The position numbers and the translations under genes are program-made. The notes under the pieces are model-generated. The model had not been told where the DNA came from, did not search any database, and worked only from the letters and a program-made list of their open reading frames with translations. From Chrysochromulina tobinii (taxonomy: Eukaryota > Haptophyta > Prymnesiales > Chrysochromulinaceae): a stretch of 28,000 nucleotides of DNA. The first letter of the stretch is position 1. The number at the start of each line of letters is the position of its first letter. Where the stretch lies: NCBI GenBank assembly GCA_001275005.1, contig JWZX01002837.1, forward strand, positions 1-28,000. Reading direction: 5' to 3'. Shown here in pieces: positions 6,413-12,111 of this stretch.

Positions 6413-9400
6413 TTAGTTGTTGCTCAGGTCGGTATCGATCAGCCCAAAGTAGATCCAGACGGAGCACACGCCACCCGGGTAGGCGATCGCCTTGACGGCG
6501 ACGACGAACTCGACGCCATCATCCTGATTCTTATGATAGGTGGTGGATCCGAGCAGATGCTTTCGGATCTTCTTCGAGTCCTCGTACGCGTAATTGAAGG
6601 CGCGCGCCTGCAGCGTCGAGCCGCCGGGTAATCTCGTCTTCACCTCGCGTTCCCATGAGGAGAGCTTCTCGAGAGCTTTCTCGTCGCCCACGCGCTTCAG
6701 CTCCTGCAGCTCGAGGCGATCAGAGGCATTCAGCGGCGATCAGCGGCATTCAGAGGCGATCAGAGGCGATCAGAGGCACTCAGAGGCCATCAAGGGGCAC
6801 ATCACCTGCAGCTCGAGCCCCTTGATCAGGCTCTGTACGAGCTCGGGAGACTTGTTGATCGTCGTCTTGAGCGCCGGCCCGCGCTGCAGCTTGATCTGGG
6901 TCTCGAGCTCGCCTAAGATCTGCGCCTCGAGATTACGAAGCCGATCGGGCGCGACCTTCGGTGGGAGGCGCAGCGGTGTGTAAAAGGGGACGGGCAGCCC
7001 CAGATTCTGCTCCCGCTTCTCGACGAAGCACTCCCACTGCGAATCGGACTCGGCTGGTAGGTCATACTCAAGGAGCGCTGGGTCGCACATTCGCACGAGC
7101 TCGTCGCGTTTGGAGACCCACAGCTGCCTGTGATTGAAGATGCACTCGAGCGTCGCATACGGCAAGTCAACCTTGGGCAGCGCGAGCTCATCGTAGAGAT
7201 TACGACGGCGAGCTGCGGTCGTGGCGCCGCCGCCATCGCCGCCGCCGCTCGCCTCCTCCTCCTCCTCCTCCTCGTTGTCAAAGACCCCCGCACCAGGGCG
7301 GCTGTGCGCCTTCATCTCGGCAAGCTCGTCGTCATCAAAGTAGATGATCTCGCCCAGATCTCCCTCGATCTCGTCACGGTTCAGGAGCTCGTCCATCATC
7401 ACGTCCATGATGTCCGCCTCGCCCGCATCCAGAAGGTACTGATCTGTCTTGTAGTTATCGAGCGCGCCGCCGTCGCCACTCTTGCCGCCTCTCTTGCCAC
7501 CGCCCGGGCCGCCACTCCTGCCACCAGCGCCGCTGCTAGGTACGATCGCTCCAGCGCCACCGTCGCCGAGGTTGATCAACTCGACCTGCTGCGGCGCAGC
7601 GCCCGTGCCCTCGCCCTTCTTCTTTTTCGTCTTTCTGCCCGCGTCGTCTGCGGCCACCACGGCTGCAGCAGCCGCTGCACTGCCGCCCTCCGCGCCCGGG
7701 GTCGCACTCGCCTCTGCCGCGCGCGCGAGCCCAGCCCGTTTGAGTCGCTCGTCCTCATCCAACGGTGGGTGCCAACGGTTACGAAGCACGCGCATCGTGC
7801 CGTTGGACGATTCCCACATGCACACCGAGCCGTCGTCTTGGCGTGTGAGCACCCAGACGTGGCGCTTCTCGCCGAGGATGGCTCCCTTGGAGCGCCCGAC
7901 GCACACATACGCATCCTCTCCAAGCCCAAGGAAAAGGTTGCACATGAGGAGCGAATGGTCTTCGTAATCGCCCTTGCGCATCTCGAGGAAGAAAGGAGGC
8001 GCCTGCCACACGTCCTTTCGCGTCTCCTTTTTGAACGTGTCCGTGTCGGCTGACCAGGTGATACAGCGCACCATGCGCGCCACTTGCATCTTCGTCTTCA
8101 TCTCCGACGGCGGCTGTGTGGGCGTGAGGTACTCGCACAACAGATGAACGGACTCATCCTGGTCCTCAGCCGATACGAGCCGCCGGATGTCCTGCGCGCG
8201 CAATCAGATCGCAATCCGATCGCAATCAGAGGCCATTCAGAGTCACTCAGAGTCACTCACGCACCTGCGGGCGCATCTCGAAGCCTGGATCGTCGCGAGA
8301 GAGTTCTAGCTTCAAATGGTCGCGCAGCTGGAACTGGATCGCGCTCGGGATGGCGCGCCAGAACGACTTGACGCGGTTGGCCCACACCTGATGAAGAGAC
8401 AATCACAGTCAGCAATCACATGCAATCAGGTGCACTCCGAGCTCCCCATACCTCGCCGAGCTCCTTGACAGTAAGCAATCACATGCAATCAGGTGCACTC
8501 CGAGCTCCCCATACCTCGCCGAGCTCCTTGACAGTGCGCTCCGCGGATTCCTCGAGCACAATGTCCTGCGGCAGGTCCGGGCAGAAGTAGAGCTCGAGGT
8601 CGATCGTGGATGAGATCTTATTCCCAGGCAGGACGAGCGGCATCGCCTTCGCCTTGAAGACGCGCCCCTTGTGAAATCCCGCATGCTTGCCCGTCTCGTT
8701 CTCGACCTTCGCGTGCTCTGCGGACGTGATCTTATGCAGTGGGATTTCGCACGAGCCGAGCAGGTCGTGCCCCGCGGCGTCCTGGTCGAAGACCCGCACC
8801 TGTGGGAAAGTTGAGGCGCCGTAATGAGCACGTTCATGCTGCACTCCCATGCACTCATATGTTCTCATATGCACTCATATGCACTCATATGCACTCTCAC
8901 ACAATCACACGCAATCATACGCACCGAGATAGCTGGCTTGTCCATGAGCGATTGCAACGTGAGGGTGACCAACTTAAGAGGAAAGTAGAGCGTCTGGCGC
9001 CATTCGGGCTCGAGCGAGCGCAAGATCACCTGATGAGGGAGGCAATCGGCATGCACTCAGAGGCAATCAGCATGCATTCAGGCTCGAGCGAGCGCAAGAT
9101 CACCTGATGAGGGAGGCAATCAGCATGCACTCAGAGGCACTCAGAGGGAATCAGCAAGCGCAGGATCACCTTCGTCTCCTGCTGCATCCCATCCCACTCG
9201 ACGACGACGAAGGGGTCAGACGCGCCGTTGGGATCCGCCGGGATCAACTTTGAGGCCGAGTTGATCCGCACGGCGAGGAACGTGATGCCAGGCTTACGCT
9301 CGACGAGTATGCCTATCTGATGGTACTCTGGCGTCTTCCCTTCGAAGAGGATCTGGCCGTAGAGCCGCCCTGCCGGCACCGTCTTCTTAGGGTACTTGCC

Positions 9401-12111
9401 GCGCACCTGTGGGGAAGTGGAGGCGCCGCGGTGAGCACTTGCATGCCCGCCGGCACCGTCATCTTTGGGGACTTTGCCACTCACCTTGGGCTTGGAGGTG
9501 TCTGGTTGGTCCAGCGCCAATCAAGGGCAATCAAGGGAGATCACACCTTGGGCTTGGAGGTGTCTGGTTGGTCCAGCGTGAGCTCGACTTCTACCTGCCC
9601 GTACCTGATGAGGGAGGCCATCAGGGGCGTTCAGAGCGCAATCAAGCGCCCAAGCAATGGTCATCAAGCGCAATCAAGAGCTCTCCAGGTGCAATCTGGG
9701 GCGATCCACTTACTCGAGCAGCCCGCTCAGGGGCACGTCAGCTTGACCGATGAGGTCGTCCGACGAGAAAAAGTCCCAGTCATGCACCTGTGTGTGGTGT
9801 GAACGGCGCCGTGGTGAGCACGCGCATGCAGCGAGGATCCTTAACTGTGGGATTCGAAGAAGCCCCAATCAGGGGCAATCACGTACCCGGATGCGCAGCA
9901 GCTCGTTCTCGAGCTCCGATCTCGTGCCGAGATACGCCAGTGGATTGCGCGCCTCATCAAACGTCGGGTTGAGCGTGTTGGCCTGCATATCCGTGCGTAC
10001 CTAATTGCAATGAGGTGACGTTGAGCGGGCATGCAATGAGGTGAGAGGGGCAATTAGGGGAGGTGGCCGGGCATGCAATGAGGTGAGAGGGGCAATTAGG
10101 GGGGCTGGCCTGCATGTGCGTGCGTACCGTCCTCCCTGGTCAGCAGGTACGCATGCAATGAGGTGATAGGGGCAATTAGGGGCAATTAGGGGCAATCACG
10201 GTGCGTACCGTCCTCCCGAAATAGCCGCCATGACGCAGAATCTTGCACCCGGGGTGCGCGGGAGGGTCGATGGAGAAGACGATGTACGGATCGGACGTGG
10301 CCGCCATGTACCTGTGGGGACACGACGCTGTGGTGAGCACTTGCATGCAAGGCGGGTCATCAGGTGGCAATCAGCGTACTCCTTCGGATCGAAAGTGCGC
10401 TTCGCTTCTGCTTTCTTAGCCTTGTCCAGGCGCTCCTCCTCGCGAGCGTCTTGCTGCTTCCTGAGGCGTCGCAGGCGTTTCATCTCTCTTTGGAGTTGCT
10501 CCTCCTTCTGGTCCGCGTCGCGCTGCTTCTGCAGCTCCACTCGCTCCTGGAACGAGAGCTTGCCCTTCTTCTTGGCTCCGTCGCCGCCGCCACCGCCAGA
10601 CTTGCCGCCTATCCCAAGGGCCGCGAGCCAGCCGCGCTTGGGCGGCTGCGACGGCGACGCACCGTCGTTCAGAGCGTCGCTCTGGGGCCCCGTGACCAGT
10701 TTCTGGTGGTCGTGCTCGCCGCCGCCGCCGCTCGTGGTTTCGTCAGAGGCGCCCGCGCCGGCGCCCGTCTCGCCCGCCGGAGCGTTTGCTGTCGCGCCCG
10801 TGCCCCCACCGTCCTCTGGTGGGGGCAAGTACCTGCCTCCGGACTGCGCGGCGCGTTGCTTGTCGATCCGCATGCGACGATTGCGTTCCTGAGGAGGTCA
10901 TCAGCAAGGTCATCAGCGAGGTCATCAGCGAGGTCATCCCCGGATCCGCATTCGGCGGCTGCGCACCTTTTGCTTGCGCTTCAGCTCGAGCCGCTGCTTG
11001 AACGCCTCGCGCGCCGCCTCGATCTTCGCCTTCCGCTTGGACTCTAAATCCTCGCTCTTGGCCGAGCGCTTCTTCTTCTTGGGCGTATCCGCGGCGATCA
11101 GCCCGACGCCCTTCCACAGCACGAATCGTAATTGAAAGACGAAGAGCTCTTCGAAGTAGACGACAAACGAGATGCGGAAGAGAGCGCCGCCGGACTTGGC
11201 GCTACCGCTGCCGCCGCCGTCCTTCTTCTCGTCCTTCAGGACAAACTCCTGCATCACCGAGCCCTGGGCAAGCTGCAGGAGAGAGAGCTTCTCGCCGCAT
11301 CGCTTCTTGCCCTTCTTCGCCGTGAAGCTCTGGAACACCTGTGGGGGGCGACGGGGGCTCGCGCCGTGGTGAGCGCATGCACGCCATCGTGGGGACCGTG
11401 CCGACGGCTCACCTCGATCTCGATCTCCTCCATCTCGAGATCGACGTACGAGCCCATCCAGTACACGGGGACGCCGTATCCGAACTCGTTCTTGAAGTAG
11501 TGCGGCGGGTCGTTCACGTCGATGCGCGGACAGGCGGGCGTCTTGAACTGCGCCCCTTTCTTCGTTCCGCTCTTGACGAGACCCTTGCCGGGCACCTGTG
11601 GAAAGTGGAGGCGCCGTGGTGAGCACTGGCATGCTGGCCGGCACCGTCATCTTGACGAGAGCCAAATGCCGGGCACCTCTCGCTCCGTGTAGTCGCCGCC
11701 GACCATGATGCGCAGGTAGGAGCTGAGCCTCTCCTGGGTGAGCGCCTCGAGCTTGATCGCCTTCATCCGGAACTGGAAGACGCGCTTCGTCGTGTCCGGG
11801 TTCTTCTGCAGTAGCCGCTGGTACTTTTCACGCTTGGCTGCCAACCGCGATGACTCCTTCGCCTCTTCACGGTTGCCCTTCTCTTTCTCGATGTCATCCC
11901 TCTTCTTCTTGGCCTCGGCAAGCTCCTTGTTCTTCTGCTCCGTGGCCGCCCGCCTCTCCTCCTTCTCCTTCTCCGATTCCTTGGCGAACGGGTTGAGCTT
12001 CGTCAAGAATGATAATCGACCCTTAGGTTCCTTTTTCGGGGTGTCGCCAACGCCGCCTGCAGCGCCGTCGCCGCCACTGGCCGCCACGCCCGCATCGCCG
12101 CCATCCGCCAT
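6413..12111 (-). CDS. C2 / inactive transglutaminase-like ciliary protein of CEP76/CC2D2A type, 14 exons
   Basis: Exons on the minus strand: 12111-11677, 11595-11413, 11338-10967, 10888-10380, 10311-10209, 10000-9887, 9787-9714, 9604-9547, 9406-9170, 9029-8925, 8799-8515, 8387-8265, 8191-6806, 6703-6413. They join in one frame to 1424 residues. The N-terminal third is charged coiled coil. A first C2 domain starts near residue 500 (ATSDPYIVF, later DWDFFSSDDLIGQ), a second near 655 (NGASDPFVVVEWDG, VFDQDAAGHDLLG); both keep acidic loops suited to calcium. A transglutaminase-like fold follows near 920-1000 (GDYEDHS, DAYVCVG, RHVWVL) without a catalytic Cys, as in CEP76 and CC2D2A. The C-terminus (FVVAVKAIAYPGGVCSVWIYF) also matches that group. 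Those proteins act at centrioles or the ciliary transition zone, so a flagellar-base role is inferred. A family-level call is safer than one ortholog. The start is the ATG at 12111; an in-frame ATG at 12306 is an alternative. Confidence 0.8.
6704..6805 (-). other. Intron 13 of the ciliary gene
   Basis: 102 nt, phase 0, full of GATCGCCTCT/GAATGCC repeats. CTCGAGCTGCAG occurs perfectly both just before the donor and as the last 12 nt of the intron, a direct duplication of the exon end that supplies the acceptor AG. Confidence 0.8.
8192..8264 (-). other. Intron 12 of the ciliary gene
   Basis: 73 nt, phase 0, CAG|GTGCGTGAG donor and GCGCGCAG|GAC acceptor. It contains short repeats of GAGTGACTCT and GATTGCGATC. 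No clear flanking duplication. Confidence 0.75.
8388..8514 (-). other. Intron 11 of the ciliary gene, with 63-nt internal duplication
   Basis: 127 nt, phase 0. A 62-nt sequence containing the end of exon 11 and the intron start is repeated perfectly (8411-8472 and 8474-8535), so two equal donor sites lie 63 nt apart. Retaining the unit would introduce an in-frame TGA. Acceptor TTCATCAG|GTGTGG. Confidence 0.8.
8800..8924 (-). other. Intron 10 of the ciliary gene (shared 3' module)
   Basis: 125 nt, phase 0, donor TCG|GTGCGTATG. It contains GAGTGCATAT repeats, then the module CGTGCTCATTACGGCGCC ... TTTCCCACAG shared with introns 1, 2, 4, 6 and 8. Confidence 0.8.
9030..9169 (-). other. Intron 9 of the ciliary gene (nested, three target copies)
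   Basis: 140 nt, phase 0. The target site GTGATCTTGCGCT... occurs at the donor (diverged), once in the middle (28 of 29 identical to the exon) and at the start of exon 10. Both later copies follow TGATTGCCTCCCTCATCAG, so two insertion units appear stacked at one site. Confidence 0.8.
9407..9546 (-). other. Intron 8 of the ciliary gene (carries copies of both flanking exons)
   Basis: 140 nt, phase 0. It holds a perfect 35-nt copy of the end of exon 8 (9482-9516 versus 9544-9578). It also holds an approximately 40-nt diverged copy of the start of exon 9 (GTGAGTGGCAAAGTCCCC... versus GTGCGCGGCAAGTACCCT...). Its 3' end is the shared GTGCTCACCGCGGCGCC module. A 78-nt intron from the second copy is possible only if the first is removed separately. 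Confidence 0.75.
9605..9713 (-). other. Intron 7 of the ciliary gene
   Basis: 109 nt, phase 2, donor GA|GTAAGTGG, acceptor CTCCCTCATCAG|GTACGG. Its 3' end is the CCTCCCTCATCAG type also found in intron 9 and in the ankyrin gene. Confidence 0.8.
9788..9886 (-). other. Intron 6 of the ciliary gene (readable exon relic)
   Basis: 99 nt, phase 0, donor CGG|GTACGTGA. Just inside the donor the sequence still translates to DWGFFES, against DWDFFSS at the start of the next exon. The shared GTGCTCACCACGGCGCC module is near the 3' end. Confidence 0.8.
10001..10208 (-). other. Intron 5 of the ciliary gene (internal copy of the joined exon junction)
   Basis: 208 nt, phase 0, made of CCTAATTGCCCCTCTCACC-type units. 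Both ends carry GTACGCAC. In the middle (10107-10138) lies a copy of the uninterrupted exon 5/exon 6 junction. Confidence 0.8.
10312..10379 (-). other. Intron 4 of the ciliary gene (shared 3' module)
   Basis: 68 nt, phase 2, GGA|GTACGC donor and GTCCCCACAG|GTAC acceptor. Carries CATGCAAGTGCTCACCAC. Confidence 0.8.
10889..10966 (-). other. Intron 3 of the ciliary gene
   Basis: 78 nt, phase 0, centre made of GATGACCTCGCT repeats. The donor side translates to VRSRRMRI against ERNRRMRI at the start of the next exon, sharing ATGCGGATC; a duplication of about 26 nt. Confidence 0.8.
11339..11412 (-). other. Intron 2 of the ciliary gene (shared 3' module)
   Basis: 74 nt, phase 0, donor GAG|GTGAGCC. 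Contains CATGCGCTCACCACGGCGC and ends CCCCCCACAG. Confidence 0.8.
11596..11676 (-). other. Intron 1 of the ciliary gene (near copy of intron 8)
   Basis: 81 nt, phase 0. The donor side GTGCCCGGCA..TCTCGTCAAGA repeats the start of exon 2. The last 58 or so nt, from AAGATGACGGTGCCGGC to CCACAG, are almost the same as the 3' part of intron 8. Confidence 0.85.

Follow-up and report, generated by a model that had tools for sequence, protein, structure and literature searches.

Introduction

The bulk origin of new introns is a long-standing question. Here, a stretch of 28,000 nt from the haptophyte Chrysochromulina tobinii (referred to as the window; contig C1679 of an assembly of 53.15 Mb and 2253 contigs) was analyzed, in which a CEP76-like gene carries 13 introns, and its repeated introns were compared with the systems that resemble them most closely. 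The published systems are described as they appear in excerpts of the cited papers. According to a survey of 3,325 genomes, some introner families are associated with duplications of 3–9 bp, and one type, the Symbiodinium type, draws its 5′ splice site from a 4-bp target duplication (PMC9860276). The elements studied here are similar to the Symbiodinium type in that the element carries the 3′ splice site, the donor comes from the target duplication, many copies are genic and removal is predicted to be exact. They differ in that the Symbiodinium-type introners have 4-bp duplications and terminal inverted repeats, whereas we observed duplications of about 30 nt and found no inverted repeats. The Chrysochromulina introners of the same survey share with the present ones the haptophyte host and, in the excerpt, the lack of terminal inverted repeats, but they carry the 5′ splice site in the element and have a 4-bp duplication (PMC9860276), while the arrangement here is the reverse, with a duplication of about 30 nt.

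In Amoebophrya, introners are accompanied by direct repeats of 3–5 nt and by inverted repeats (PMC7789003). The introner elements of Micromonas have been explained by reverse splicing (PMC3879977); like the present ones, they are repeat introns at new positions in the sense orientation. However, no long target duplication is to be expected from recombination after reverse splicing into a transcript, and none is described in the excerpt (PMC3879977). In potato, a tandem duplication produced a two-part intron in a single local event, with an exonic piece giving the donor and the 3′ part of an intron giving the branch site, tract and AG (PMC4974935). This anatomy is the one described below, although the potato case is one local duplication and the intron end is here dispersed in thousands, often with no adjoining parent; the tandem arrays of the present genome do fit the potato case. 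Direct repeats near the splice sites of 213 introns measured 4–30 bp with a mean of 11.4 (PMC11782384), and candidate introners in viruses have been reported in a paper on mirusviruses (PMC12768974). Among the matches listed in a search of the open-licence literature, no title or abstract mentioned duplications of about 30 nt in introners.

Results

Copies of the intron end in the window and in the genome

A first-pass annotation of the window had described an introner-like 3′ module packed into one gene. When GTGCTCACCACGGCGCC was searched in the window with at most 3 mismatches, six matches were obtained, all on the minus strand (8815, 9422, 9805, 10324, 11360 and 11610), while 100 shuffles gave a mean of 0.30 and a maximum of 2. 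One match fell in each of the six introns, out of 13, that the annotation had named; their six coordinate pairs were reproduced as intron ends, and all six introns finish in CACAG. The whole-genome search that the annotation had suggested found the module elsewhere. The 17-nt module pattern (at most 2 mismatches) gave 1931+2002 matches on the two strands compared to 143+111 for the reversed control, and the 25-nt core GCATGCAAGTGCTCACCACGGCGCC of this intron-end family, called E1 (at most 3 mismatches), gave 1050+1146 = 2196 matches compared to 0+0. The label introner-like was appropriate, but the module is repeated genome-wide and, with 2196 core matches, is not packed into one gene. A 5′-extended form of E1 was matched 113+124 = 237 times and a second intron-end family, TGATTGCCTCCCTCATCAG (at most 2 mismatches), 1815+1898 = 3713 times, both with 0+0 matches for the reversed control. 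These numbers are matches and not introns, as tandem arrays inflate them. The fetched copies terminate in an acceptor and are flanked by differing exons on each side. A 200-kb sample, composed of 20 contigs taken at even steps, contains 4 of the 46 E1-like copies described below. In all, the sequence that was read covers about 296 kb of the genome.

Evenly spaced arrays of cores were seen at C127:6603-6684, C245:2599-2638, C416:3059-3179 and C343:2055-2191, with a spacing of about 21 nt for the second family and of 48 nt and 60 nt for E1. In IMG/VR, the exact 25-nt E1 core was present in a sole stretch, L051:4495-4545 (IMGVR_UViG_3300027760_000958, 4554 nt), where it stands with a tract and CACAG followed by GT at the extreme end of the contig. 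On inspection by eye, the remaining frames appear phage-like. This contig is probably chimeric or a scrap of haptophyte DNA.

Anatomy of the young introns

The young copies very probably have a two-part anatomy, T + E, in which E holds the 3′ splice signals and T is a copy of the start of the downstream exon that gives the donor GT. E is about 45 nt long and contains a branch-point-like site, a pyrimidine tract and AG. In E1 the core is followed by the pyrimidine tract and CACAG, with 37–54 nt from the core start to the AG (44 copies). The CTCAC of E1 and the CTGAT of the second family fit the yUnAy form of a branch point.

T was scored by local alignment in 66 E1 copies, i.e., the 46 of 145 module matches in fetched loci that passed the E1 filter and 20 more, and compared with 382 cross-pairings, each taking its exon from a different copy (99% level 11.6, maximum 25.9). 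The 99% level was exceeded in 43 of the 66 copies, and in 34 of these 43 the alignment begins at the first exon base, directly after the AG. The median T end in the 43 copies was 30 (range 14–52); some alignments of the 66-copy set come from tandem arrays (C90) or from an AG within E (C1650, C90, L054, L071). A stricter set of 26 copies, restricted to T scores ≥18 and introns shorter than 130 nt (32 listed), gave a median T of 31 nt (quartiles 27–36), a median E of 46 nt and a median intron of 80 nt (range 65–108). Copies without a recognized acceptor were excluded from this set as well as from the 52-copy and 60-copy sets used below. Reverse splicing of a whole intron into RNA followed by recombination, which leaves no target duplication, does not agree with the T found in 43/66 copies.

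Several T copies are clean: 31/31 nt at C1950:7008, 35 nt with 97% identity at C37:7865, 39 nt with 97% in C348 (L070), and 47 nt with 98% in C182 (L057). When the joined flanks of L006, L057 and L070 were compared with the genome by BLAST, the T part matched twice, once on each side of E. In two of these three young sites an uninterrupted paralogue was found. Across the L006 junction (90/91), paralogous DNA runs over query positions 38–115 at 85% (C2204) and 38–100 at 83% (C2168), and across the L070 junction over 1–158 at 74% (C2040), while no paralogue of L057 was found in the genome. L006 shows by eye a dual-specificity-phosphatase-like motif.

It would also be conceivable that these are old introns that have kept a conserved branch site and tract, with the likeness to the exon start arising by chance. 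Splice signals can be constrained, and 7 of the 13 window introns lie at or below the 95% control level for T. However, the 25-nt core has 2196 matches against none for its reversal, T lies far over the cross-paired controls, intron-free paralogues exist, and the near-identical T copies contradict such an origin, which we regard as scarcely credible.

The exon starts that follow E1 were examined in 52 copies (arrays thinned, exons starting with G only). Of these, 44 have T at position 2, 46 have A or G at position 3, 37 have C at position 4 and 33 have G at position 5. A donor-like GTRCG at the exon start is expected if the exon start is the donor's original. A separate coding test, which covered 52 cases away from the window, placed the best coding reading of the 75 nt downstream on the strand of E in 41 of them. 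The second family has a different E and the same layout, with T above the 99% control level (18.5; maximum 34.1) at 10 of 44 sites, a median T end of 32 and a GT exon start at 28/44 sites. Some of its non-GT copies stand directly after CAG (C124, C1650, C66; compare C1950, in which the upstream 90 nt look like intron repeats), and these seem to lie exactly where an exon already began, in which case the old donor would be usable. Both the GT copies and the copies at exon starts would be expected from random insertion with selection, and likewise from a mechanism directed to junctions.

The first and last 15 nt of 44 E1 copies matched no better as terminal inverted repeats than in the direct-orientation control, and no special RNA fold of E1 was detected (z 0.03). 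The former result bears on DNA transposition of a non-autonomous element of about 45 bp, in which a transposase or integrase would cut the two strands unusually far apart, i.e., the usual introners with a longer duplication. E1 often begins near GCATGC (21/43) and ends at AG, so that both ends are fairly fixed, and most published introner families with signatures resemble DNA transposons, as far as the excerpt goes (PMC9860276). Nevertheless, this explanation appears rather unlikely. In addition to the missing inverted match in the 44 copies, the length of T varies (quartiles 27–36 in the stricter set), 5′-extended E1 forms exist (237 matches), and two unrelated E families have the same layout. 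A transposase makes a fixed, short target duplication. The median of 31 nt in the stricter set also lies outside the 3–9 bp expected of such introners.

A further possibility is that a segment crossing an intron/exon border was copied, through tandem genomic duplication or through template switching during DNA repair, so that the exon start and the 3′ end of the old intron together form a new intron, as in potato (PMC4974935). In the array at L044:2173 the upstream intron end is repeated as E, the exact layout also occurs in the C90 and C88 arrays and at 9030-9169 of the window, and the closest E1 relatives lie on the same contig in three of the four closest pairs. The tandem T-E-T-E arrays are indeed better explained by duplication or unequal exchange. 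As a general explanation it is nonetheless quite improbable: the 90 nt that precede the isolated copies L006 and L057 are uninterrupted coding sequence and not E, the same E occurs in thousands of places, the exon starts of related copies are unlike (Mantel r −0.02 to 0.03), and T follows the AG directly in 34/43 copies, for which a random break would need selection.

Two other ideas were tried and rejected. Guidance of insertion by likeness between source and target exons gave Mantel r values of −0.02 to 0.03, none of them notable against 2000 permutations. An origin of copies from the same contig found no excess in a wider measure on the 52 array-thinned copies (2348 of 5000 shuffles reach the value). 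The pyrimidine tracts of 60 copies are more alike within contigs than between them (0.354 vs. 0.207, reached by 1 of 2000 label shuffles), and the likeness within contigs was 0.282 for pairs more than 300 nt apart.

Introns of the window gene

The window gene is one gene's share of the genome-wide introner system, and its introns are listed in Table 1. Six of the 13 introns contain a downstream exon-start copy that scores above the 95% control (8.0), one of them marginally (8.5), and three of the 13 contain an upstream exon-end copy that surpasses the control maximum. High scores were also reached by two control pairings (14.5 and 29.0), due at least in part to an intron of this gene that includes a neighboring exon's copy. 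In intron 9, which does not belong to E1, the T copy is near-identical (28 of 29 nt).

Table 1. Position and composition of the CEP76-like gene and its introns in the window.
Feature	Position	Strand	Composition and evidence
CEP76-like gene	6413..12111	-	Open spliced frame, Pfam domains, homologues across 13 junctions
Intron 1, E1 type	11596..11676	-	T 11650-11676, exon partner 11571-11595; E1 core 11610-11626; T score 16.3 (95% control 8.0)
Intron 2, E1 type, no detectable T	11339..11412	-	Core 11360-11376; T score 7.0, under control
Intron 3, not E1, TGATGACC repeats	10889..10966	-	T 10943-10963, exon partner 10865-10885; T score 11.0 (95% control 8.0)
Intron 4, 5′-extended E1: TGATTGCC/TGATGACC part and E1 core	10312..10379	-	Extended pattern 10332-10363; no detectable T, score 6.5
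Intron 5, not E1	10001..10208	-	T 10106-10127, exon partner 9979-10000; T score 17.0
Intron 6, E1 type, weak T	9788..9886	-	Core match; T score 8.5, marginally above 95% control
Intron 7, ends CTCCCTCATCAG (second family type), no detectable T	9605..9713	-	Gene model; T score 6.0
Intron 8, E1 type	9407..9546	-	Core match; 40-nt downstream exon-start copy 9445-9484, score 20.5
Intron 8, upstream exon-end copy	9485-9516	-	Perfect over 32 nt, score 32.0
Intron 9, second family (TGATTGCC..CTCATCAG), tandem T-E-T-E	9030..9169	-	T 9075-9103, exon partner 9001-9029; T score 26.5
Intron 10, E1 type, no detectable T	8800..8924	-	Core match; T score 5.5
Intron 11, not E1	8388..8514	-	Perfect 21-nt upstream exon-end copy; upstream score 21.0 (control maximum 11.0)
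Intron 12, not E1, no exon copy	8192..8264	-	Gene model; scores inside control range
Intron 13, not E1	6704..6805	-	3′ end repeats upstream exon end; upstream score 12.4 (control maximum 11.0)

The first-pass annotation had also noted that most introns of the gene are in phase 0 and that the next exon usually begins with GT. Both observations were borne out: 11/13 introns are in phase 0 and 2/13 in phase 2, and the following exon starts with GT at 10/13. Outside the window, phase 0 does not dominate, with 17, 10 and 14 introns in phases 0, 1 and 2, respectively, among 41 copies in which the downstream exon was rated as coding in the sense orientation. The donor GT had further been assigned to a duplicated target, which agrees with our results; the duplication of about 30 nt is far longer than could be seen from the window by the earlier reader.

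A recent burst of intron gain in this gene, as proposed earlier, is supported only in part. A downstream exon-start copy lies above the 95% control in 6/13 introns, and a distant paralogue reads through four of the intron sites. The copies in the two E1 introns of the window that were measured are 83% and 85% identical, compared to 97–100% in several introners elsewhere. The paralogue, on C1838, is 37% identical to the window gene and covers query residues 65–283 in one stop-free stretch, without an intron at the sites of introns 9605, 9407, 9030 and 8800 (query residues 92, 111, 190 and 225). The alignment breaks near the 9788 site (residue 67), where the paralogue may hold an intron. The lack of introns at the four sites agrees with gain in the window gene, loss in the paralogue being the alternative.

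Introns 8388-8514 and 9407-9546 contain perfect copies of the upstream exon end (21 and 32 nt, respectively), so that duplications occur in both directions. Introns 9407-9546 and 11596-11676 both have GATGACGGTGCCGGC just upstream of E1, and in the 9407 intron this sequence is part of the local exon copy. As GATGACGGTGCCGGC is common to both, one of the two introns may descend from the other.

Host gene and the remainder of the window

When the 13 introns are spliced out, the minus-strand gene running from 12111 to 6413 yields a single open frame of 14 exons and 1424 amino acids. In Pfam, the predicted protein shows two C2 stretches, a CEP76 peptidase-like domain and the CEP76 C-terminal domain (CEP76_C), and by these domains the gene is CEP76-like. 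Among named relatives, the best match is a C2-domain protein from Haptolina brevifila (64%). In a comparison with 18 homologous proteins, every one of the 13 junctions has at least one homologue that aligns across 16 residues with no gap, at some junctions with low similarity, which argues that the gene model excises the introns exactly. This continuity of the proteins suggests that the window introns, and likewise the introner copies, are spliced. One relative, P0004, has 1384 amino acids on a contig of at most 5122 bases, which leaves little space for 13 introns; this contig may be genomic or a transcript. A second gene of the window encodes a mannosyltransferase with named relatives in Prymnesium parvum and Emiliania huxleyi (52% each, over about one-third and one-quarter of the query, respectively), so that both proteins point to a haptophyte host. 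No known RNA family reached its gathering score in the window.

Discussion

The T-E-T layout, the AG end with T directly behind it, the length of T and the genome-wide spread are evident from the DNA itself. Taken together, we consider it likely that this haptophyte harbors an introner system throughout its genome, with target duplications that are unusually long, for which target-primed insertion of intron 3′ ends is the best-fitting explanation. The mobile part would be E, the 3′ end of an intron with its branch-point-like site, pyrimidine tract and AG. Its insertion would duplicate about 30 nt of the target and give the order exon-T-E-T-exon, in which the first T opens with GT and could serve as the 5′ splice site, while E would supply the 3′ splice site. 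Excision of T + E would then return the message exactly. E may be copied from intron RNA onto a staggered nick, either by target-primed reverse transcription or by partial reverse splicing into DNA followed by the same step. The same layout would also be expected from an attack of the intron's 3′ end on the top strand together with a bottom-strand cut about 30 nt downstream.

Whether the movement goes through RNA is, in our estimate, evenly balanced. In favor of the RNA route, the 3′ end is precise while the 5′ end differs between copies, T is both long and variable in length, and no terminal inverted repeats were found. Non-LTR retrotransposons and their short passengers, which insert by target-primed reverse transcription, likewise show a precise 3′ end, a 5′ end that varies and target duplications that differ in length. 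Their duplications are usually shorter and their 3′ end carries a tail, whereas the present elements finish in a splice acceptor and no tail was seen. The genome contains 26 matches to the reverse-transcriptase domain RVT_1, 22 of them above the cut-off. These domains lie in open frames of up to 3358 codons, whose products are possible mobilizers.

Several observations weigh against target-primed insertion of intron 3′ ends. The RVT_1 domains are not tied to E, and no enzyme is linked to it. T did not pass the threshold in 23/66 E1 copies, and some of the 43 T-positive copies lie in tandem arrays. In 21 of these 43 copies, T ends at most 5 nt from the fixed GCATGC start, so the 5′ end is only partly variable and resembles that of a DNA element with fixed ends. 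The lengths of T and E are negatively correlated (−0.51), which may reflect selection on intron length or a worn T that is counted as E. Copy L060 has a T and neither tract nor AG, and a GT start was found at only 4 of the 10 T-positive sites of the second family. Finally, neither of two blind scans of the 200-kb sample exceeded its controls: near-tandem repeats with GT..AG boundaries numbered 2 compared to 2 in the reversed control, and a gapped scan at CAG sites gave 8.27 matches per 1000 sites compared to 4.8–9.0 at eight non-AG trinucleotides, the match lists including coding repeats and satellites. Long T copies are thus seen around the E families, with no genome-wide excess in these scans.

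We tentatively suggest a further route of mass intron gain, in which spliced introns from two or more families might have their 3′ ends reverse-transcribed onto staggered nicks about 30 nt, or three helical turns, apart. As part of this same possible scheme, each event would make an intron of which one half derives from intron RNA and the other half from a local exon copy.

What is new here is the T + E anatomy, which points to an unusual route of intron making. Introns of the two families have only their 3′ end in common and come with duplications of about 30 nt, which a transposase with a short stagger does not explain. As some T copies are near-identical, single insertions can be read base by base, which makes the mechanism testable in a culturable group of algae. 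Recent gains are also flagged by a long T, and no sister genome is required for this.
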